64,000 bases of DNA from an uncultured Verrucomicrobiota bacterium (GCA_903876795.1 CAIRBK010000097.1:81012-145011); one strand, 5' to 3'; shown: positions 50,636 to 64,000, numbered from the stretch's first letter. Notes: a model not told the origin generated them from the sequence alone. Made by a program: numbers and translations.

Positions 50636-51607
50636 ATGCTGCACAAACTCGCCTTAACCAAGGCCCTCGTCGTCCTTGCCCTGCTCATGTTTTTAGCGGG
50701 GTGTGAACGCCGCAACCCGCTGCGCATCGGTCTCAATATCTGGCCGGGTTACGAGTTCCTCTACCTCGCGCAGGAATTGGGTTACTACAAGGAGGAGGGA
50801 GTCGACGTGCAACTCGTCGATTTCTCCTCGCTGGCCGATGCACGGCGGTCGTTTGAGCGCGGTCAGATCGACGGTCTGGGCACGACGATCGTCGAGGTGG
50901 TCCTGGCCGGTGAAAACTCCGCCGACCCTCTGAAAATCGTGAGCGTTGTCGATTACTCCAACGGAGCCGACGTCATCATCGCCAAGCCGGGCCTGTCCGA
51001 CCTGAAAGCCCTCAAGGGGAGCAAGGTCGGCGTGGAGCTCGGCTCGATCTGCGTCTACGTCCTCGCCCGCGCCCTGGAGTCCGCCGGCATGACCATGGCC
51101 GACATCGTGCCCGTGTCCAAGGACCAGGCCAGCATGGGAGCCGATTTGCGCGCCGGCCTGCTCGACGCCGTTGTAACCTACCCGCCCACCTCGACCGAAT
51201 TGCTGCGTGAGCGCACCGGTGAAGTCATCTTCAGCACCGCCCAAATACCCCGCGAGGTGGTGGATGTGATCGCCGTTGGCGAAACCGCCATCAAGTCCCG
51301 CCCCAAGGATGTCGCCGCCCTCCTGCGCGCCTTCTACCGGGCGCAGGATTACCTCGCCAAACACCCCGCCGAGGCTTTGCGCATCATGAGCGCGCGCGAG
51401 GGCGTGACGCCGGAGGAGTTCAGCATATCACTCACCGATGGTATGAGAATGCTCTCGGCCAGCGACCAGGCGCTCTACCTCAGGGAGGGCCGCATCAAAC
51501 CCATCGTTGCCGGGACCATCGATGTGCTCCGGCAGAATCGTCTGATCATCCAACCGAAGCCCGAGCATACTTATTACACCGATTTCTTCACCACCGAGGC
51601 TAGATGA
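50636..51607 (+). CDS. NMT1/TauA-like substrate-binding lipoprotein
   Basis: The 323-residue protein has a lipoprotein signal: a basic start, a hydrophobic stretch and the lipobox LAGC with acceptor C23. The mature part is a type II periplasmic binding protein of the NMT1/SsuA family. It begins LRIGLNIWPGYEFLYLAQELGYYKEEGVDV and includes a GTTIVEV loop and SKVGVELGS. Ligands in this family include sulfonates, nitrate, cyanate and thiamine precursors. No permease or ATPase follows. Instead its stop overlaps the start of a large hybrid histidine kinase (ATGA at 51604), so it is probably the sensory subunit of that kinase. Confidence 0.88.
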   Translation: MLHKLALTKALVVLALLMFLAGCERRNPLRIGLNIWPGYEFLYLAQELGYYKEEGVDVQLVDFSSLADARRSFERGQIDGLGTTIVEVVLAGENSADPLKIVSVVDYSNGADVIIAKPGLSDLKALKGSKVGVELGSICVYVLARALESAGMTMADIVPVSKDQASMGADLRAGLLDAVVTYPPTSTELLRERTGEVIFSTAQIPREVVDVIAVGETAIKSRPKDVAALLRAFYRAQDYLAKHPAEALRIMSAREGVTPEEFSISLTDGMRMLSASDQALYLREGRIKPIVAGTIDVLRQNRLIIQPKPEHTYYTDFFTTEAR

Positions 51608-54600
51608 CCGCACCGCACACCCAGGCTGTATCGCTCTCCCGCAAAGTTACCCTGCCCTTGTTGGCGGTCGGTGTTGCGATGATCGCCATCGGCACGGTCG
51701 TCATCTACCTTCTGGTTAACAGCCAGTTCATGGAACGCCAAGGCGTGCGGGCCAAGACGGTCGCCCAAGCCGTCGGCTACGCGGCCGAGACCATCGACCA
51801 CTCCGGCGCGCTGCAACGCATCGTGAGCGCGACCGGCGCCGACCGGGAAGTCCCCCTCATCATCGTGGCCGGTGGCGGCCACCATCGCATCATCGCCAGC
51901 ACCAACCCCACCTGGAACGGCCGGTCCCTCCCCGCCTTGAACGGACCGGCAACCGTCACCAGTCTCTCCGAGGACGCCCTGCGCACCGCTGGATTCAAGC
52001 CCGGCCAGACTCCCGCCCACTGGCTGCTCTACAGCCTGCGCCTGCAGTTACAGGACCACGAAAAACACACCATCGACCTACACCCCGCAGTCGTCGTGGT
52101 TGCTCTGGACAACACCCTCGTCCGCCAGAAAGTGCTGCGCATCACCACAATCTCGGCCACGGGTTTTGCCCTCAGCCTGCTCACGCTCGCCGCGATCTGT
52201 TATCATTATCTCCGCCGCCATGTGCTCGCGCCTTTGGATGAAATTGAGCGCCGCCATCTGGGCAAAGCGGGCGCGTTGCCGACCGTTTCCAGCGTAGATG
52301 CCGCCGACGAAATCGGCCGGCTGGAAAACACCCTCGCGCGCACCTTGACCGAGATAAAGGGCGCGCGCCGTGAACGCGACCAGCTCCAGTTCACCTTCGA
52401 CCAGCACGCCATCGTCGTGTCCACAGACATCCGCGGGCGCATCACCTACGCCAACGACCGCTTCTGCCGGATCTCCGGCTACACCCGCGAGGAACTCCTC
52501 GGCCAGGATCACCGCATGATCAATTCAGGGCAGCACCCCCGTGAGTTTTTCACCGATCTTTACACGACCATCAGGCAGGGCCGCGTCTGGCATGGGGAAA
52601 TCTGCAACCGCGCCAAGGACGGCTCCCTTTACTGGGTCGAAACAACCATCGTGCCGGTGCCGGACGAGGACGGGAAACCCGCCCGCTACATCGCCCTGCG
52701 CAGCCTGATCACAGAGCGCAAAAACGCCGAGCTCGCCCTCTCGGTGCTCAACGAACGCTTCGCCCTGGCCGCACGCGCCTTCGGCTTCGGCGTGTGGGAC
52801 TGGGACATCCCCCTCAACACGCTCGTGTGGGACGACGCCATGTTTGTACTCTATGGCATAGCCCGCGATTCCACGTCCCGTCCCTACGACACCTGGATGA
52901 ATCAGGTCAGCCCCGCCGACCGCGCCAGGGTGCAAGACGACATCGACGCCGCTCTCCGGGGCGACCGCGGTTATAACCCCGAGTTCACCGTACACCTTCC
53001 CAACGGAGAATCCCGCATTCTCCAAGCCGCCGGCCTTGTGCTGCGCGACTCCGCCGGCGCCCCCGTGCGCATGGTGGGCATCAATTTCGACATCACCTCG
53101 GCGCGCCTCGCCGACCAGGCCCTGCGCGCCAACGAATCCAAATTGCGCACCCTCTTCGAACTCTCGCCGGTCGGCATCTCGCTCAACGATTTCGCCACCG
53201 GCGCCTTCCTCGAGGTCAACCCCGCGCTCTACGCGCCGACCGGCTACACCCGCGAGGAATTCGTCAACCTGAGCTACTGGGACCTCACGCCCCGCGAGTA
53301 TGCGGATCAGGAAAAGCTCCAGATCGACAGCCTCTCCACCACGGGCCGCTACGGACCCTACGAAAAGGAATACATCCGAAAGGACGGCACCCGCTACCCC
53401 GTCGTCCTCAACGGCGTAAAAACCGTCATGCCCGACGGTCGCGAGGCCATCTGGTCCATCATCCAGGACATCACCGAACGCAAGGCGGCCGAAAACGAGA
53501 TTCTCCGCACCAACGACCAGCTCGCCGTGGCCATCGCCAACGCCAACCAACTCGCGCTCCGCGCCGAACTGGCCAGCATCGCCAAATCGGAGTTCCTCGC
53601 CAACATGTCGCACGAGATCCGCACGCCCATGAACGGCGTGATCGGCATGCTCGGCCTCCTGCGCCAATCCAGCCTCGACGACGAGCAGCGCCGCTTCACC
53701 GACATCGCCGTATCCAGCGGCGAAGCCCTCCTGACCCTGATCAACGACATCCTCGATTTCTCCAAAATCGAAGCCGGCCGCCTGGAGCTTGAAACCATCG
53801 ACCTGGACCTCGAAAAACTTCTCCAAGAAGCCACCGCTCCCCTCGCGCTGCGCGCCCACCAAAAAGACCTGGAGTTCATCTGCGAAATTGCCCCCGGGGT
53901 CCCGCTGCGCCTACAGGGCGATCCGGTCCGCCTGCGCCAAATCATCACCAATCTCGCCGGCAACGCCCTTAAGTTCACCGAACGGGGAGAAATATCCCTG
54001 CTGGCCTCGCTCGTAACACTCGAGCCCGAGCACGCCGTCCTGCGTTTCTCGGTCACCGACACCGGCCTGGGCATCCCGGAGGAGAAGCTGTCCGTTCTGT
54101 TCACGAAGTTCACCCAGGTGGATTCCTCCACCACCCGCAAATACGGCGGCACCGGTCTGGGCCTAGCCATTGCGAAACAACTGGCCGAGCTCATGGGCGG
54201 CACCGTGGGCGTCAGCAGCCGCATGGGCCGGGGCTCGGAGTTTTGGTTCACCGCCCGCCTGCCGCTTCGCGACCCCGCCCCCGAGGCGGTTCCGGTGATC
54301 CCGCCCTCGCTGCGCGCCGCCCGCGTCCTCGTTGTCGAGCCCAACGCCTCCAGTTGCACCGCCCTCGGCAACATCCTCGCACGCCTCAACATTGAATGCA
54401 CCTGCGTCGGCAACGGTGCCGCCGCCTTCGCCGCGCTGGAGGCCGCCCGCAGCCGGCCTTACGACTTGGCCCTTATCAACCCGCTCCTGCCCGAATCCGC
54501 CGGCCTGGCACACGGCCGCCTTGTCGTCTCGTACCCGGAGCACTCAAAGCTCCGACGCATTCTGCTCGTCCCGCTCGGCCACATCCCCGCCCAAAACGAC

Positions 54601-55524
54601 CTGCAGGCGCCCGAGTCCTCAGCCATCCTCACAAAACCGGTTTTTGCCCAAGGTCTGACCAAATCTCTGGGGGACGCGCTCCTGGCGAATCCCTCACTGC
54701 CCACACTTGAACAGCCTCCAGCGGTGCCGGCGTCTGCGGCGCGCGCACCCCGCAGCCAGGCGCGCATCCTCGTCGTCGACGACAACGCCACCAACCAACT
54801 CGTCGCCCGCAGCATCCTTGGGAAACTCGGTTATTCCTGCGAAACCACCGACAGCGGCGAGGACGCGCTGCGACTTATCGGGGGCCAATCTTTCGACCTG
54901 GTCTTGATGGACGTCCAAATGCCCGGCATGGACGGCTACGAAACCACCCGGGCGATCCGCAACGGGAGCGCCGGCGACGTCAAACGCAAGACCGTCGTGA
55001 TCGCCGTGACCGCCCACGCGCTTGCCGGGGACCGGGACCGCTGCCTCCAGGCCGGCATGGACGACTACCTGACCAAGCCCATCGACCCAAGAGACCTGCA
55101 GGCCATACTCGAAAAATGGCTCGACCGCTCCACACCGGTGCCCCCACCTCCCATCGCTCCCTCCGCCTCGCCAGCCGAGGACGCGGAGCCCGTGCTTGAT
55201 TACGCGGATGCCCGTGCCCGACTGATGGAAGACGAGGACATCCTCCGCACCTTGCTCGTCGCAGTGTGGCCGTCCATCACCGAAAGCCACGACCTACTCT
55301 TGGCGGCGATACGCTCCGGGAACCATGCCGAAACCAAACGCATCGCCCACTCCCTCCGCGGGGCGGTCACCAACGCCGGCGCGCGCCGGCTGGCCAAGCT
55401 GCTCCAGGCACTTGAAATATCCCCGCCCCCGCCCGATGATCGCCTCGTCGCCCGAATCACGGCGGCCTGCGATGAGCTCAAAACCGACATAGCCTCCTAC
55501 CTCAGGAATTCCACCCCGGTTTAA
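51604..55524 (+). CDS. Membrane hybrid histidine kinase with three PAS domains, two receivers and Hpt
   Basis: The 1306-residue protein has a membrane helix at about 15-38, an extracytoplasmic region, a second helix at 179-203, and a HAMP-like linker. Three PAS domains follow (about 262-374, 383-500, 505-629). The dimerisation domain has H670 in [13 protein letters not shown] and is followed by an HATPase with [11 protein letters not shown] and [14 protein letters not shown]. Receiver 1 (about 905-1030) lacks the acidic pair (E912-P913) and has N959 where the phospho-aspartate should be. Receiver 2 is intact, with D1059, D1060 and phospho-acceptor D1103. An Hpt domain ends the protein (H1249 in IAHSLRGAV). 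The overlap with the upstream binding-protein gene suggests periplasmic ligand sensing. Confidence 0.93.
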
Positions 55525-55540
55525 GGCACCACTTTTCCAC

Positions 55541-57655
55541 ATGCCCTCATTACCGCTGCCCCTCGATGACCCCGGCCGCCTAGCCGCCCTGGCGAAACTT
55601 CGTCTGCTCGACAGCGAGGCGGACGTGAATTTCGACCGTGTCTCCCGACTCGCCGCGCGACTGCTCAACGTCCCCGTGGCCCTGCTTTCGCTCGTGGATG
55701 ACCACCGCCAGTTTTTCAAATCAGCCATCGGCCTCACCGGCCCCGCCGCTGCGGCCCGCCAGACGCCGCTGAGTCATTCATTTTGCCAGCATGTCGTCAC
55801 CTCGGGGACCAATCTCGTGGTCTCCGACGCCCGGAACCATCCGGTCGTCCACGACAACCTCGCGATTCCCGATCTAGGGGTGGCCGCCTACCTGGGTATC
55901 CCTGTGCGCGACTCCGAAGGCCACGTGCTCGGCTCTTTCTGCGTGATCGACGGCCAATGCCGCGCTTGGAGCGAAGCCGACATCGCCCTCCTGGAAGATC
56001 TTGCCGCCTTGGTGATGACTGAAATCGCCCTGCGCGAGGAAAACCTCCGCTTGCAGAAGGCCCGGGAAGTTCTTGATGAAACCAATCTTGTCCTCGCGGC
56101 CGCCAAGGACTCGGCCGAGGCCGCCACGCGCGCCAAGGCGGACTTCCTGGCCAACATGAGCCACGAAATCCGCACGCCGATGAACGCGGTCATCGGCATG
56201 GCCGAGCTCCTGAACGAGTCCCCGCTGGCACCCGAACAAAAACGCTACGCCACGGTCATACAACAAAGCGGCCGCTCGCTGCTTACCTTGATCAACGACA
56301 TCCTGGATTTTTCCAAAATCGAATCCGGCCGCCTGGAACTGGAGCGCGAACCCGTGGATTTGGCGGGGTGTGTCGAGGCTGTTTTCGATATTCAAGCCCG
56401 ATCTGCGGCTGAACGGCACCTCGAACTCGTTTACACCATGGATGAGGGGGTGCCCGCGCGTATCCTCGGCGACGTGATCCGGCTTCGTCAGGTCTTGGTC
56501 AACCTCGTGGCCAACGCGATCAAGTTCACCGGACAGGGCGACGTGGTCGTTTCCCTCTCGATCCGCGCCGGGCTTCTTCATGTTTCCGTGCGCGACACCG
56601 GAATCGGCATACCGGCGGACCGGCTTGACCGACTTTTCAAGGCCTTTTCCCAGGCCGATTCATCCACCACCCGCAAATACGGCGGCACCGGCCTGGGCCT
56701 GGCGATCTGCCAACGCATCGTCTCCCTCATGGTGGGGCGCATCTGGGTGGAGTCGGAAGTGGGCCGAGGCTCCAATTTTCAATTCGAGATCCCCCTTGCC
56801 GCGGCACCTGCTCCCGAGAACGCCTCCGCTCCGGCCCGCCCCCGCCTCGCGGGCCGACGTCTGCTCATTGTGGACGGTCATGCGGTGCGGCGGGAATACC
56901 TGGCCCGGCTGGTCCGTCGCAGCGGCTTGACCGCAACCGTGGCGGACTCCGCCGCCGAGGCTCTGGCCTTGCTCGCGCGCGGCGATACGTTCGACGCCGC
57001 TGTCCTGGACATCCCGTGCGGATCCCCGCCGGCCGCCGACCGGCAAGCCCGCTTGGTCGAACAAGGCGCCTCCAGTGGCATGCCCCTGATCGCGATGGTC
57101 CCCTTCGGTGACAACACCCAAAACCCGCTCCCGAGCGGTAGTCGCACCGTCCTGACGAAACCGGTGCAGACCTCCACCTTGATGCACGTTCTGGACACCG
57201 CCCTGTCGCCCGCCGCCGTCGATGTCCTCAAGCCGCCCCTCACGGTCTCCACCGAATCCTTTGCCCAAAGGCATCCGCTAAAGATTCTCCTGGCCGAGGA
57301 TCACCCCACCAATCAGCTCGTCGCGCAACTGCTGCTTTCGCGCCTCGGCTACCACTGCACAACCGTGGCCAACGGCCTGGAAGCGCTCGCGACCGTGGCC
57401 CGGGAGCACGTCGACGTCATCCTCCTCGACGTGCAGATGCCCGAACTGGACGGCATGGAAACCGCCCGCCGATTGTGCGCCGAATACGTTCCGGGAAAAC
57501 GCCCCTGGATAATCGCCATGACCGCCAACGCCCTCGAGGGCGACCGCGAAGCCTGCCTGGCGGCAGGGATGGACGACTACTTGGTCAAGCCGATCCGATC
57601 CGCCGACCTGGCGGCGGGCTTGGCCAATGCCCACTCGGTACTGAGTCAACGGTAG
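55541..57655 (+). CDS. GAF-domain hybrid histidine kinase with two receivers
   Basis: The 704-residue protein is cytoplasmic by sequence. A GAF domain (about 25-165, with [22 protein letters not shown]) precedes a coiled coil and the histidine domain, with H208 in [17 protein letters not shown]. The HATPase has [15 protein letters not shown] and [14 protein letters not shown]. Receiver 1 (about 445-560) keeps a candidate acceptor D490, but its acidic pocket reads V-D-G-H. Receiver 2 has E-D at the start, acceptor D630 in [12 protein letters not shown], and the lysine in LVKPI. It lies 16 bp after the larger hybrid kinase and may exchange phosphate with it. No Hpt domain is attached. Confidence 0.92.
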
Positions 57656-57683: not shown

Positions 57684-57875
57684 CCAAGGCTCCGGGTGTG
57701 TTTCTGAAATAAATCGGGTCCGCGTGAGAGGAGAAGCGGGCTCGGCCAAGACGACCGAGACGGAGGCGACCCGGCGGGTCGTGCCGTTCAGGTCGATGCC
57801 GGCCCGGCCTGCTTATCCTCCCACTCGCAGTGTTCGAGGACCTGTGTTCTTTCAGAAACACACCCCAGGCCTTGG
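57684..57875. mobile_element. 192-bp MITE-like element with 26-bp terminal inverted repeats
   Basis: The left end (57684-57709) and right end (57850-57875) are inverted repeats of 26 bp with three mismatches clustered at positions 8-10. The innermost 16 bp, GGGTGTGTTTCTGAAA, match perfectly. The 140-bp centre holds a small GACCC/GGGTC hairpin and no gene. No target-site duplication is clear. The element lies between the GAF kinase stop and a receiver-domain remnant whose homology begins just after its right end. Confidence 0.6.
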
Positions 57876-57888
57876 CCGCCTCACCTAG

Positions 57889-58287
57889 GTTTACGTTGCG
57901 ATAGGTCTCCTGTTCAGCGCATTTCTGGAGCGCCTGGGCTACCATGCCGAAGTCGTGTCCAACGGTCTTGAAGTGCTCGACACCTTCGCCACACGTCGAT
58001 TCGATGTTGCCACCCTCGATGTGCAAATGCTTGATATGAATGATTTATCATGCGCTCGCCGCCTTTGCGCCAAATGCGCCGAGTCATTGAGACCTTGGCT
58101 GATCGCCATGACCTCCAAAGCACTTGAAGGTGATCAAGAGATTTGCCGTGCCGACGACATGGACGATTACATCGGCAAGCCGGTCGGCGGCCCGACGATA
58201 GCGGCGACCCTCACAAGAGCGGCCGAAAGATTGGCCTGCGCCGTTCAATTTAACACCTCCCCCATTGAAGGCTATGCCCACACCTGA
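57889..58287 (+). pseudogene. Receiver-domain remnant (N-terminally truncated)
   Basis: After an in-frame TAG at 57886, the frame reads GLLFSAFLERLGYHAEVVSNGLEVL and then LDVQMLDMNDL, PWLIAMTSKALEGD and MDDYIGKPVGG. It parallels the second receiver of the GAF kinase just upstream ([53 protein letters not shown]). The phospho-acceptor Asp, Thr and Lys are kept. The first beta strand and acidic pair are missing, and no start codon gives a full domain. It looks like the tail of a duplicated hybrid kinase or response regulator cut by the adjacent inverted-repeat element. Its end overlaps the TonB receptor start. Confidence 0.7.
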
Positions 58288-60325
58288 TTCCCGATCGCCC
58301 CGAGCTCCTACCTTCGCGGCTTCCTCCCGTAAGACAGGTTGGTCTTTGTTGCTTTTTACCGCTTGCATCGGGCCGGCTGGGGCAACTGAACGCGGCAAAG
58401 AGGACCTCGCCAGCCTCGAACTCGAACAACTCGTGGAGCTGCCCGTCGAATTCGTGTCCGGTGTCTCCAAATACGAACAGTCAATCCGCCAGGCCCCCGC
58501 CAGCGTCACCGTCCTCACCGCCGCCGACATCCGCAATTACGGCTGGCGCACCCTGGGCGACGCCCTCCGCAGCGCCCCGGGCTTCCACATCCGCACCGAC
58601 CGGTTTTACGACTACATCGGCAACCGGGGCTTCACCCGCGCCTACGACTACAACTCCCGCACTCTTGTCCTCGTCAACGGGCAGAGGATCAACGACCCCA
58701 TCTACCAACAGGGATCCGTCGGCACCGACTTCCTTCTCGACCCCGACCTCATCGACCGCATCGAGATCATCCAAGGCCCCGGCTCGTCGGTCTACGGCAG
58801 CAGCGCCTTCTACGGCGCCATCAACGTCATCCCCAAAAAAGGCCGCGACCTCTCCGGTGGCCAGATCTCCGCAACCTTCGACTCCTCTGCGGGCACGAAG
58901 GGCCGCCTGACCTACGGGGACCGCACCGCCGACGGGGTTGAATATCTGCTTTCCGCCACCGAGTCCCATACCCCCGGGCAAACCAATTTTCCCCTCCCCG
59001 ACGACTGGCGCGCATCCACCGGTCGTCCCGACGAACGCATCTCGACCGAGGACGGCACCCGCCAGCGGCAACTCTACGCCCGGGCCTCGTGGCGCGGACT
59101 CGAAACCGAAGCCGCCTACGGCCGCCGCGAAAAAGACGTCCCCCCGCCGGTCTACCACACCCTCCCTGGCGCCCATGCGGCCGACACCCGCGCCTACTGG
59201 CTCGCCCGGGCCTCCGGTTCGCCCTTCGCAGACGCCACCCTCTCCCTTAAAACGTCCGTCGATTATTATGCCTACGATGGTACCTTCCGCCCGGCCAACG
59301 ACTACGACGGCGACTTGATCAACGAATTCCACGAACGCCGCCCCAAGACCCGCTCCGTCTCCCTGAACAACGAGGTCCGCTGGCACCAGACCTCCGCCGC
59401 CGGACACAGCCTGCTCCTCGGCACCGAAGTGCAAAACAACCTCCGCCTCCACAGCAGCAACCCCAACCTGGAACAGCCGGCCTACTCCGCTGCCGAAATC
59501 AACACGTCCTCCCGCTACTACAGCCCCTTCGCCCAGATTGACTACCAGGCACTCCCCGGCCTGCGCCTCTCCACCGGAGCGCGGTACGACGACTACAGCA
59601 CGGGCGAAAGCCGTCTCACGCCCCGCGTCGGCCTGATTTGGGACTACACCCGCGTCACCACGGTGAAACTCCTCTACGGCGAGTCCTTCCGCGTCCCGAA
59701 CCTCGAGGAGCGCAACCCGTCAGAACCTCGCGGTGTCGCCAACCCCGATCTGGGCCCCGAAACCGCCCGCAGCTGGGAACTGGCCTGCGAACACGATTTC
59801 TCCAAGTACTGGGCCTTCGATGTCCGCCTTTACCATACCCGCTCCGACGGGTTGATCTCGTTCCATGAACCCGCGCCCGGCAGCTTCAGCTACCAAAACG
59901 CAGCCAATTACGAGACCAGGGGCGGCGAAATAGGCACGACCACCCGCTTTGCCTCCGGCATCACCACCCGCGCCTCCGTCACGCTCCAAAAAACCACCGA
60001 CGAGTCCTCCGGCGCCGACGTCGCCGACGCCCCGCATTTGCTTGGAAAACTGAACCTCTCCGTGCCTCTCCGCGCCGACTGGTTGCGAGCCTCCGCCGAA
60101 ATCCAATATGTCGGCGACCGGCGTGATTTCACCGCCCCCGCCCGGGACACCGGCGACTACCTGGTCGCCAACCTCACCGTGCGCGCGGCCCCCGTCTGGC
60201 GCCACTGGGACCTCTCGGCCAGCATCTACAACCTGGCCAACGCGCGCTGGTACGATTCCATGAACGACGGCCAGATCGTCGCGCCGGCCCGCACCGTTGT
60301 CCTTCGCGTTAGCCGCGACTTTTGA
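58274..60325 (+). CDS. TonB-dependent receptor
   Basis: The 683-residue outer-membrane protein has a signal-like N-terminus (basic residues, then WSLLLFTACIGPAGA). A plug domain follows (about 65-185) with SVTVLTAADIRNYGWRTLGDALRSAPG, VLVNGQRINDPIY, and IEIIQGPGSSVYGSSAFYGAINVIPKK. A 22-strand barrel ends in aromatic Phe (VVLRVSRDF). The start is ATG 58274; a TTG at 58265 adds three residues. It resembles receptors for siderophores or vitamins, but the ligand is not readable. Its stop overlaps the start of the YfiR-like gene, so receptor and signalling genes form one operon. Confidence 0.92.
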   Translation: MPTPDSRSPRAPTFAASSRKTGWSLLLFTACIGPAGATERGKEDLASLELEQLVELPVEFVSGVSKYEQSIRQAPASVTVLTAADIRNYGWRTLGDALRSAPGFHIRTDRFYDYIGNRGFTRAYDYNSRTLVLVNGQRINDPIYQQGSVGTDFLLDPDLIDRIEIIQGPGSSVYGSSAFYGAINVIPKKGRDLSGGQISATFDSSAGTKGRLTYGDRTADGVEYLLSATESHTPGQTNFPLPDDWRASTGRPDERISTEDGTRQRQLYARASWRGLETEAAYGRREKDVPPPVYHTLPGAHAADTRAYWLARASGSPFADATLSLKTSVDYYAYDGTFRPANDYDGDLINEFHERRPKTRSVSLNNEVRWHQTSAAGHSLLLGTEVQNNLRLHSSNPNLEQPAYSAAEINTSSRYYSPFAQIDYQALPGLRLSTGARYDDYSTGESRLTPRVGLIWDYTRVTTVKLLYGESFRVPNLEERNPSEPRGVANPDLGPETARSWELACEHDFSKYWAFDVRLYHTRSDGLISFHEPAPGSFSYQNAANYETRGGEIGTTTRFASGITTRASVTLQKTTDESSGADVADAPHLLGKLNLSVPLRADWLRASAEIQYVGDRRDFTAPARDTGDYLVANLTVRAAPVWRHWDLSASIYNLANARWYDSMNDGQIVAPARTVVLRVSRDF

Positions 60326-60930
60326 TGCCGCACCCGCTCCACGCTTTAGCCCGTCGGAGCCGCCGCCTGCTCGCAGTGGCGGCGATCTTCTGCCTGGGTC
60401 TTTCCGAAAGCGGGCTGGCCCAGGTCGCCGCGTCTGCGACCGCCGTCGACTCTTCCACGGCCACCGCGGCCTACCTGCTCAATTTCCTCCGTTTCACCGA
60501 GTGGCCCCCCGAACCCGGCGCGTCGGATATCGCCGCCCCCTACGTCATCGGCGTGGCCGGCAACCGAGACCTGCTCGACTCCCTGATAACCTTGGTGGAA
60601 GGCCGCACGGTCCGCGGCCACCCTTTGCGCGTAACCCGCATCAAGGACGCACGGAACGCCCTGGGCTGCCACGTCGTCTACCTTGAAGGCGAAAAAATCG
60701 GTGACGACTACCTTCTGAGCCCGGATGAAGTCGTGCCCCTGTTGCAAGGTCGGCCCGTACTCACCGTATCCAACGCGCCCGGTTTCGTAGCCCGGGGTGG
60801 CCTCGTGCAGCTTTTCCGCGAGGGCACCCAACTTCGGTTCGCCATCAACACCGACGCGTTGCCGGCGACCGGCCTCGCTTTAAACTCGCGCCTCCTCGCA
60901 CTTTCCCGCAAGCCCCCCGCCGCCCCATGA
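60325..60930 (+). CDS. YfiR-like (DUF4154) periplasmic protein
   Basis: The 201-residue protein has a signal peptide (basic start, LLAVAAIFCLGLSESGLA) and a DUF4154 domain. This shows YLLNFLRFTEWP near the start of the mature chain, VIGVAGNRDLLDSL, GHPLRVTRI, CHVVYLE, LTVSNAPGFVARGGLVQLF and LRFAINTDALPATGLALNSRLLALS. YfiR in Pseudomonas is a periplasmic repressor of the CHASE8 diguanylate cyclase YfiN and senses redox state through disulfides. Here only one cysteine is left after signal cleavage, so that redox switch is absent. Its start overlaps the TonB stop by one base and its stop overlaps the kinase start (ATGA). Confidence 0.88.
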   Translation: MPHPLHALARRSRRLLAVAAIFCLGLSESGLAQVAASATAVDSSTATAAYLLNFLRFTEWPPEPGASDIAAPYVIGVAGNRDLLDSLITLVEGRTVRGHPLRVTRIKDARNALGCHVVYLEGEKIGDDYLLSPDEVVPLLQGRPVLTVSNAPGFVARGGLVQLFREGTQLRFAINTDALPATGLALNSRLLALSRKPPAAP

Positions 60931-62519
60931 AGCCGAAAGGCCAGTCAATCCGGCGCCAGATACTGGTGTTCAGTCTGCTGCTTTGCGCAGGCGTCATGCT
61001 CCCGGTCGGCTGCGGCCTTTTTTTCCACAACTACCGCCAGACCCGGGCCCGCTTGCACGACTCGCTCCAGGCGAGCGCGGGCATCACCGCCGCCAATGTC
61101 TCTGCCGCCCTCGCCTTCGGTGATCAGGACTCGGCCCGGGAAATCCTCTCCGCCCTCCGCAATGACCCGCTGATCACCTCTGCGGTCATTCGCGATTCCC
61201 GCGGCGGATCCTTCGCCTCCTTCGACTCGGCAAAAACCGGCGACACGGCCTCTTCTCCCCACTTGGTCTCGGTGCAAATCACCCACTCCGGTGAAACCTA
61301 CGGCGAACTGGTCGTCACCGGCGACACGGCCCGGGAACTCAGGTCCACCGCGTTCACATGGGTCGCCATCTATCTGGCCGCGTTCGGCTTGTCCGTGGTT
61401 TCCGCTCTGCTGATCGCCCGTCGTTTCCAGCGCACCGTCTCCACCCCGCTCGTCAATCTCGCCGCCACCGCCGTGCGCGTCGCCCACGAGCGCGACTACC
61501 AGACCCGCGCCACCGTCGCCGGCTGCGCCGAGGCCATCGACCTGGCCGTCGCTCTTAACGTCATGTTGGCCGAGATCGGCCGGCGCGACCAGCGCCTTGC
61601 CCTCCAAGTCGAGTCCCTCAACCGAGAAATCCGCGAACGCGAAAACGCCGAGAGTGCCTTGCGCGATAACCAGCACGACATGGTCCGACTCTCACGCGAA
61701 GCCGGCATGGCCGAGGTCGCCGCCGGTGTCCTCCACAACATCGGCAACGTCCTCACCAGCATCAACGTCTCCAGCGACCTCATCGCCGCCAGGGTCACCG
61801 GCGCGCAGCACCGCCCCGTCGCCACCCTTCGTAAACTGCTCGGCGCCACTGCACCGAAGACAGCCGTGGTTTTCTCCGTCCATCCCGACGGCACCGAGCT
61901 CCGCGCCCTGCTCTCCTCCCTAGCCGAGAACACAGCCACCGACCTCGACGAGGTTTCCAGGCTGCTGGAAATGATGCGCAAGGGTATATCCCACCTCAAA
62001 CGCATCGTCTCCAGCCAGCAATCCCTCGCTCGTACCTCCAGCATCACCGAATCCATCCAATTACGCGACGTCCTTCAAGACTCCCTCGTCCTCGCTCGCA
62101 CCATCGCCCGCCAGTTCTCCCCTTTGACCGACAATCTCGACGAAGGCGCCACCATACACGCCGACCGCAGCCTGGCCGTGCAAATCCTGCTCAACCTGCT
62201 GCTCAACGCACACGAGTCCATCGTCGCACGCGCCCCCGCCTCGCCCATGATCTCGATCAGCTTCTCTCCCGCCACCGACGGCTTCACTGCGGTTTCCGTC
62301 CAGGACAACGGGGTCGGCATCCCGCCCGACAAACTCGTCACCATCTTCACCTACGGCTACACCACCAAGCTCGCCGGGCACGGCTTCGGCCTGCACAACT
62401 CCGCCAACGCCGCCCGTCTTATGGGCGGCAGCCTTGCGGTGATCAGCCCCGGCTCCGGCCTCGGTGCCACTTTCACCCTCACTCTTCCCTCCCGTCCACC
62501 CTCCGGTCAAAACACATGA
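60927..62519 (+). CDS. CHASE8-HAMP sensor histidine kinase (GVLHN-type)
   Basis: The 530-residue membrane kinase has a helix at about 12-34, a CHASE8-like periplasmic domain (SAALAFGDQDSAREILSALRNDPLITSAVI) and a second helix at 143-164. A HAMP domain (165-220) and coiled coil lead to the histidine box AAGVLHNIGNVLTSINV with H270. The residue after the histidine is Asn rather than Glu, as in the GVLHNxGN kinase branch. HATPase motifs are NLLLNAHESI, DNGVGIPPDKL and GHGFGLHNSAN. The N-terminal half matches YfiN, but the output is a kinase instead of GGDEF. It overlaps the YfiR-like gene and the downstream receiver-kinase gene by 4 bp each. Confidence 0.92.
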   Translation: MKPKGQSIRRQILVFSLLLCAGVMLPVGCGLFFHNYRQTRARLHDSLQASAGITAANVSAALAFGDQDSAREILSALRNDPLITSAVIRDSRGGSFASFDSAKTGDTASSPHLVSVQITHSGETYGELVVTGDTARELRSTAFTWVAIYLAAFGLSVVSALLIARRFQRTVSTPLVNLAATAVRVAHERDYQTRATVAGCAEAIDLAVALNVMLAEIGRRDQRLALQVESLNREIRERENAESALRDNQHDMVRLSREAGMAEVAAGVLHNIGNVLTSINVSSDLIAARVTGAQHRPVATLRKLLGATAPKTAVVFSVHPDGTELRALLSSLAENTATDLDEVSRLLEMMRKGISHLKRIVSSQQSLARTSSITESIQLRDVLQDSLVLARTIARQFSPLTDNLDEGATIHADRSLAVQILLNLLLNAHESIVARAPASPMISISFSPATDGFTAVSVQDNGVGIPPDKLVTIFTYGYTTKLAGHGFGLHNSANAARLMGGSLAVISPGSGLGATFTLTLPSRPPSGQNT

Positions 62520-63796
62520 GCTCCGAACGTTACCGAATCCTGATTGCGGACGACACGCCCGCGCTTCATGATGCCTACAGCAGCATCTTCAACCCAGTCG
62601 GCGTAGACAGAGCCCCGATCCCCGGAGCCGATAAATTCGCCCCCGAACTGGCCCGCCCCGAAACCACCGGCCCGGTCTATGACATCACCTATGTCAACCA
62701 GGGCGAGGAGGCCCTCGCCGCCGTCAACGCCGCCAGTCTCTCCGGCGCCCCTTTCGCCCTTGCCATCCTCGACGTGCGGATGCCCCCGGGTATCGACGGC
62801 GTCCAGACTGCGCGCCACCTGCGCAGTCAGCACTCCGACCTCCAGATCGTACTCTGCACCGCGTATGCCGACTACTCCTGGTCCGATCTGCTCGCCACTT
62901 TCGCCGCCGACGACGGTGTAATGATGCTGAAAAAACCCTTCGACGCGATCGAGGTCCAACAACTCGCCATCACCCTTTGCCGCAAGTGGCGCCTGGGCGC
63001 CGAAAACCGGGCACTGGTGCGCGATCTCGAGAACCGCGTCGCCGCCCGCACCGAGCAACTCGCCATCACCCTGAAGCAACTTGAGGTCGCGTTGACAGCC
63101 GCCAAAAGCGCCGACCGGGCCAAACACAACTTCCTCCGCTGCGTCAGCCACGAGCTCAACACCCCTCTCAATGGCGTCCACGGCCCCGCCAGCGTGCTCG
63201 CGCTCTCCAAAGAACCCGAAGTCCGTGAGATGAGCCGGCTGATCCTAGAATCCAGCGCCCGCCTTAATCGACTCTTCGCCCGCATCCTTCTCTATCTCCA
63301 ACTGGAGGCACCGGCGACCACTCTCCTGACGTCAGCGTCACCTGCGGACCTCGTCGCCAGAGCCGTCGAGCCCCATCGGGCGACCGCAGTTGGGAAAGGC
63401 CTGACGCTGAACTGCACGGTTAACTCGCCCCCGCTCCTCCGCATCATCGGCAAATTCGAGCTCTTGATCGCGGCCGTGGACAACCTGGTCGAAAACGCCG
63501 TCAAGTTCACCGACAAAGGTGGAATCCAAGTTCGCCTCCGCTACGACGAGAGCGCACGGTTTCTCGTCATGGACGTGACCGATACCGGCCCGGGCATCGC
63601 CCAGCCCAAACTGGACGAAATCACCGCCCTGTTTTCGCCCGGTGACGACAGCCTCACCCGCAAGCAAGACGGCCTCGGAATCGGGCTCGCCCTGGTTTCA
63701 CGGATCGCCCGTCACCTCGGAGGCTCCATCACGGCGGGCCCCGGGCTCACCCAAGGCACCCAATTCAGCTTGGCGATTCCCGCCCAACTCCCCTGA
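62516..63796 (+). CDS. Receiver-histidine kinase protein
   Basis: The 426-residue cytoplasmic protein starts with a receiver domain: acidic D12-D13 in IADDTPALHD, phospho-acceptor D86 in LAILDVRMPPGIDG, and a C-terminal lysine in KKPFDAIEVQQL. An insertion of about 20 residues (around 32-54) follows the first helix. A coiled coil and a histidine domain with H212 in CVSHELNTPLNG lead to the HATPase with DTGPGIAQPKL and GLGIGLALVSRIA. There is no DNA-binding output. It probably receives phosphate from the overlapping CHASE8 kinase and relays it, so the final target lies elsewhere. ATGA overlap with the upstream gene. Confidence 0.92.
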   Translation: MSSERYRILIADDTPALHDAYSSIFNPVGVDRAPIPGADKFAPELARPETTGPVYDITYVNQGEEALAAVNAASLSGAPFALAILDVRMPPGIDGVQTARHLRSQHSDLQIVLCTAYADYSWSDLLATFAADDGVMMLKKPFDAIEVQQLAITLCRKWRLGAENRALVRDLENRVAARTEQLAITLKQLEVALTAAKSADRAKHNFLRCVSHELNTPLNGVHGPASVLALSKEPEVREMSRLILESSARLNRLFARILLYLQLEAPATTLLTSASPADLVARAVEPHRATAVGKGLTLNCTVNSPPLLRIIGKFELLIAAVDNLVENAVKFTDKGGIQVRLRYDESARFLVMDVTDTGPGIAQPKLDEITALFSPGDDSLTRKQDGLGIGLALVSRIARHLGGSITAGPGLTQGTQFSLAIPAQLP

Positions 63797-63939: not shown

Positions 63940-64000
63940 TTACTTGCCTTTCATAAAGCGTTCCATTTCCGCCTTTTCGGCGGCTTTTTCGACGCTTTCG
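63940..64000 (-). CDS. C-terminal fragment of an unidentified protein
   Basis: Reading in from the right edge on the minus strand, 19 codons remain before a TAA at 63940-63942. They encode a Lys/Glu/Ala-rich helix ending in ERFMKGK. That is too short to assign a family. Codon use looks coding and the charged tail is typical of many small soluble proteins. It converges with the receiver-kinase gene. Confidence 0.35.
   Translation of the reverse strand, partial: ESVEKAAEKAEMERFMKGK

Follow-up and report, generated by a model that had tools for sequence, protein, structure and literature searches.

A conserved receptor–YfiR–CHASE8 cassette in an uncultured Verrucomicrobiota bacterium as a divergent variant of a modular signalling system

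The window analyzed here is a stretch of 64,000 nucleotides (contig C97, positions 81012-145011, of genome G000) and carries an operon that is real and conserved and represents a diverged form of a modular system already known. Its four genes overlap by 1-4 bp (Table 1). The first codes for a TonB-dependent receptor, the second for a YfiR-like protein (DUF4154), the third for a CHASE8-HAMP histidine kinase and the last for a receiver-kinase, as the first-pass annotation of this DNA had described; coordinates and Pfam matches bear this out. We propose, with a probability of roughly 60%, that the operon serves signalling across the envelope, in which the receptor would replace the lipoprotein YfiB and take the YfiR-like protein off the kinase. 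In this proposal we infer the contact, its direction, the ligand, the sign of the effect and the phosphotransfer. If it is true, TonB receptors would have a second route, besides the transducers of the FecA–FecR type, to report to the cytoplasm, into kinases or c-di-GMP enzymes, and the numerous YfiR–CHASE8 pairs without YfiB would have a suggested input.

Table 1. Genes and predicted functional sites of the operon (window coordinates).
Feature	Position	Strand	Remarks
TonB-dependent receptor gene	58274-60325	+	plug and beta-barrel, no STN (Pfam)
N-terminal pre-plug segment (LASLELEQLVELPVEFVSGVSKYEQ...)	58403-58519	+	G000:C97:139414-139530
YfiR-like periplasmic protein (DUF4154) gene	60322/60325-60930	+	signal peptide, one mature cysteine
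C116 codon	60667-60669	+	aligned with P. aeruginosa YfiR C110
CHASE8-HAMP sensor histidine kinase gene, GVLHN H-box	60927-62519	+	
AALAF, residues 60-64	61104-61118	+	equivalent of YfiN AAVVF
H270 codon CAC	61734-61736	+	predicted phospho-acceptor
Receiver-HisKA-HATPase gene, receiver with long insertion	62516-63796	+	
D86 codon GAC	62771-62773	+	receiver's predicted phospho-acceptor

The first three genes are kept together far beyond the genus; the receiver-kinase joins this synteny only with kinases of the GVLHN type. We searched 94 Opitutales genomes, that of the window among them, and found a CHASE8 domain within 1.5 kb and on the same strand at 40 of the 54 DUF4154 domains, and a DUF4154 domain in turn at 40 of the 49 CHASE8 domains. 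At the level of genomes, 27 had both domains, four had DUF4154 alone and two CHASE8 alone (p = 3e-17). The order receptor–YfiR–CHASE8 was found in most of the neighbourhoods compared (L031-L070). A second collection, of named loci, spans Verrucomicrobiota, Lentisphaerae, Planctomycetota, Acidobacteria, Desulfobacterota, Mariprofundus, Burkholderiales, marine gammaproteobacteria and Bacteroidota. In this sample, which is query-biased (it was fetched by YfiR similarity alone, with a query set closer than all 31 YfiR proteins), a CHASE8-type protein lies beside YfiR in 47 of 48 loci, and a TonB receptor lies beside the pair on the same strand in 42 of 48, as counted by eye. A stricter automatic tally, which used domain borders, arrived at 44 of 50 for CHASE8 and 33 of 50 for the receptor. 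The pair appears without a nearby receptor in loci L098 and L109, which counts against the proposal. In two Desulfobacterota loci (L102 and L111) the order is receptor, CHASE8 kinase, YfiR. That the genes are merely co-transcribed and share no pathway is hardly credible, given a cassette kept across phyla and the co-occurrence at the level of genomes.

In some loci the receptor and YfiR are repeated together. A Phycisphaerales locus (L113) has three receptor–YfiR pairs followed by one CHASE8 kinase, L067 has two before one kinase, and L047 also combines repeated pairs with a single kinase. Besides, the trees of the three proteins are correlated, with distance correlations of 0.46 for receptor–YfiR, 0.76 for YfiR–CHASE8 and 0.58 for receptor–CHASE8 (null maxima 0.16, 0.24 and 0.14, respectively), to which species descent contributes in part.

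The core of this system is not new. Malone et al. (2012) described YfiR–YfiN[PAS] as a module with kinase, HPT or GGDEF-EAL outputs in which YfiB is mostly missing, and Opitutus terrae was among the divergent homologues that they aligned (PMC3375315). The YfiR/CHASE8 front end on a histidine kinase that the annotation had pointed out is therefore seen here, but it was already published and is also contained in the names of NCBIfam families. Our operon has the same core with a swapped output as those divergent Yfi systems, and differs in the receiver-kinase partner, which does not figure in that paper; TonB receptors have no occurrence in its main text. In NCBIfam the triad is represented by NF053590, NF053591 and NF053592 (TOL_0244 receptor, TOL_0243 YfiR-like protein and YfiR-associated histidine kinase). 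These are the best NCBIfam matches of the window proteins, all of them below the cut-offs (131 bits against 645 for the receptor, 108 against 125 for the YfiR-like protein and 114 against 194 for the kinase). A Fulvivirga cassette (L095) passes all three, with 753/645, 162/125 and 254/194. The synteny is thus the same as in the NCBIfam triad, with the window proteins as divergent members, the kinase having a GVLHN core and a receiver-kinase as partner.

Compared with YfiBNR (TpbB) of P. aeruginosa, the operon shares a periplasmic protein of the YfiR fold and an inner-membrane CHASE8(PAS)-HAMP sensor with an AAVVF-like stretch. It differs in having a TonB receptor for the OmpA-like lipoprotein YfiB, a histidine kinase for the GGDEF domain, and in the absence of three of the four YfiR cysteines. 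YfiB, in the outer membrane of P. aeruginosa, has been proposed to take YfiR away (PMC4887326); Pfam detected no OmpA-like gene of the YfiB type among the four genes, and the receptor holds its place in the operon. As in the FecA-type transducers with FecR/FecI, a TonB receptor would signal across the envelope, which is here a proposal, but Pfam finds no STN domain, YfiR would be the periplasmic relay and a kinase the output. In the collection of papers searched, we found none that links YfiR and TonB receptors as partners. The pairing of YfiR with a kinase being published already, the outer-membrane receptor seems to be the partner that papers have not described. Four observations are new: the recurrence of receptor–YfiR–CHASE8 cassettes in many phyla, with histidine kinase or GGDEF-EAL outputs; the tandem receptor–YfiR pairs ahead of one CHASE8 kinase; an N-terminal segment of the linked receptors that tracks DUF4154; and the co-occurrence and adjacency of the GVLHN kinase and a long-loop receiver.

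The bacterium belongs to the Verrucomicrobiota and probably to the Opitutaceae, since relatives from its own genus correspond to contigs of named Opitutaceae. Its genome (3.57 Mb) contains a single DUF4154 domain, a single CHASE8 domain and 13 TonB plug domains; assuming some 3300 genes, the chance of finding a receptor immediately upstream is about 0.4%. The receptor gene has a second possible start, a TTG at 58265. For the YfiR-like gene the ATG at 60325, with 1 bp of overlap with the receptor stop, is a more likely start than the TTG at 60322 (4 bp). The genes for the kinase and the receiver-kinase each overlap the preceding one by 4 bp (ATGA).

The YfiR-like protein matches PF13689 (DUF4154, YfiR/HmsC-like) at 9e-35, and the best PDB matches of its AF2 model (pLDDT 88) were P. 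aeruginosa YfiR (Foldseek, E 1e-8, TMt 0.72). Against the YfiR equivalog model of NCBIfam (NF053586) it reached 31.7 bits, below the cut-off of 85. P. aeruginosa YfiR has the disulfides Cys71-Cys110 and Cys145-Cys152 (PMC4655355). Only the counterpart of C110 is kept in the mature protein as its single cysteine, and C71, C145 and C152 have no counterpart in the alignment; neither disulfide is therefore possible, and the earlier claim that one mature cysteine excludes the redox disulfides of YfiR was correct.

The receptor consists of a plug (PF07715, 5e-21) and a barrel (PF00593, 8.5e-35). NCBIfam models for haem, B12 and siderophore receptors matched it only far below their cut-offs and do not name its ligand, nor did Rfam give a riboswitch that would do so in the window and nine relatives. 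Between its N-terminus and the plug there is a segment common to the receptors linked to YfiR, with the consensus LxxLSLExLxxxxVxSVSKxxQ (short form LxxLSLEELxxxxVTSVSK). None of the other 12 plug receptors of the same genome matched it; among those whose starts were readable, most began in an ordinary way resembling a TonB box. The Opitutales set has at least 1771 plug domains; 47 receptors in it carry the segment, and DUF4154 is present in every one of the 28 genomes concerned. Extending the comparison to 289 Verrucomicrobiota genomes, DUF4154 was present in 30 of the 31 genomes that carry the segment and in 4 of the 258 that lack it (p = 3e-35; with the seed genomes left out, p = 1e-28). 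One genome (G291) has the segment and no DUF4154. In this larger set, 57 receptors have the segment, and for 16 of them no DUF4154 gene is adjacent, which speaks against an exclusive tie. Receptors with the segment and no DUF4154 neighbour lie at loci L132-L138, in genomes that have the YfiR system elsewhere. The segment could also be a TonB box in variant form, or simply mark one clade of receptors. Read from sequence comparison, what is new and open to test in the system is this segment and the way it tracks DUF4154, and together with the cassette it offers something precise and cheap to test.

How could such a receptor act on the kinase? With no ligand, the YfiR-like protein would sit on the CHASE8 domain and hold the kinase in one state. 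Occupation of the receptor, or the pull of TonB, would make the N-terminal periplasmic segment available, and the exposed segment would take YfiR away as YfiB does in Pseudomonas. The removal of YfiR would change the activity of the kinase, H270 would be phosphorylated and the phosphate would pass to D86 of the receiver-kinase, whose own HisKA module could send the signal on to partners outside the operon. That the state of the receptor reaches the kinase by way of YfiR had been suggested in the first-pass annotation; the synteny, the tandem pairs and the shared receptor segment speak for it, and the transfer of the signal itself is what we infer. A broader version, offered only tentatively, makes the segment a dedicated dock of one class of TonB receptors, which would bind YfiR-like proteins once the receptor is occupied. 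TonB receptors could then act directly as switches of CHASE8 kinases or cyclases across many phyla, and the tandem pairs would allow several receptors to be multiplexed on one kinase.

There are two other ways to read the presence of the receptor. YfiR could itself bind and sense a small periplasmic molecule, which the receptor might import; the receptor would then only supply this ligand and make no contact with YfiR. P. aeruginosa YfiR binds vitamin B6 or L-Trp in the YfiB site (PMC4887326), small periplasmic substrate-binding proteins are weak Foldseek matches of our model, and a receptor and a sensor in one operon would be equally expected; but this leaves unexplained why the linked receptors have a pre-plug segment almost confined to genomes with DUF4154, and why receptor and YfiR are repeated jointly in the tandem loci, so we consider it rather unlikely. 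It is still less probable that the receptor is an output and not an input, the pathway of the kinase regulating the receptor and uptake genes in a feedback, with YfiR as a reader of envelope stress. Being encoded by the first gene, the receptor could be autoregulated, and Pseudomonas YfiR has been tied to envelope and redox stress (PMC4655355, PMC4887326). Against this, none of the operon genes codes for a DNA-binding regulator, and receptors accompany YfiR under any output (HisKA, HisKA_2, GVLHN or GGDEF-EAL).

Signalling by the receptor through YfiR appears to us the best reading. The output of the front end is variable. The CHASE8 proteins of the cassettes end in a HisKA kinase, HisKA_2 (L059), a GVLHN kinase or GGDEF-EAL, the last in Acidovorax, Litchfieldella, Amphritea and Uliginosibacterium (six confirmed by Pfam and three more by motif only). 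Since GGDEF-EAL is found on the same receptor–YfiR–CHASE8 front end in other genomes, the output is swappable. The annotation had expected phosphorelay and not c-di-GMP, and this applies to the immediate output of the present copy, with HATPase_c, an H-box and no GGDEF, but not to the front end in general.

In the kinase, the profile search that could have discarded CHASE8 confirmed it (PF17152, 1.3e-16), together with HATPase_c (6e-18) and a HAMP domain just below the threshold (22.4 of 25 bits). Pfam gave no HisKA match. Conserved H and N/G1/G2 boxes are present. The histidine that the annotation had placed in the GVLHN box (H270) is indeed there and is invariant in 18 aligned kinases. It lies in a long helix, the first of a predicted DHp-like helical hairpin (AF2; the pTM of the full-length model was only 0.38). 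In the HisKA H-box the residue directly after the histidine is usually E or D; here this position has N, which does not vary among 17 GVLHN cores. This residue and the absent HisKA match weigh against the proposal. In the AALAF stretch A61 and F64 are invariant in 18 kinases. The AAVVF stretch of YfiN is the proposed binding site of YfiR (PMC3375315), and AALAF is predicted to be the docking stretch for the YfiR-like protein.

The fourth gene has matches to Response_reg (1.4e-9), HisKA (1.8e-10) and HATPase_c (7e-20), and D86, D12, D13, T115 and K140 are invariant in 19 receivers. The GVLHN kinase and the long-loop receiver were found in the same 13 of 37 genomes (13/13 together, p = 3e-10), and such a receiver adjoins the CHASE8 kinase in 18 of 19 GVLHN loci versus 0 of 58 others, the lone exception being located near a contig end. 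Co-occurrence and adjacency support a putative phosphotransfer from H270 to D86. The pair of GVLHN kinase and receiver was found also without CHASE8. Legionella Lpl0330/Lpl0329 is a lead to a possible precedent for it.

The surroundings of the operon gave some further observations. Directly downstream, on the opposite strand, there are genes for an M48 peptidase, TonB and ExbD (L152:8952-11606, at 63940 to 66594 on the scale of the window); TonB/ExbD genes were not found near the operon in the fetched flanks of relatives. Directly upstream there is an imperfect palindrome of about 190 bp (57684-57875), which looks like a MITE-type element because some 41 similar copies are present in the genome, with 83-90% identity over about 175 bp. 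Between it and the receptor gene lies a relic receiver domain (57955-58287), which shares 49% identity with one receiver in the hybrid kinase upstream and 56% with the receiver at the C-terminus of the fourth gene's product in loci L076 and L078. Further upstream (50636-57655), an NMT1/THI5-like binding protein gene overlaps by 4 bp that of a PAS hybrid kinase with two receivers and Hpt. Next comes a GAF hybrid kinase, and the group is a candidate for a further operon of binding protein and kinases.
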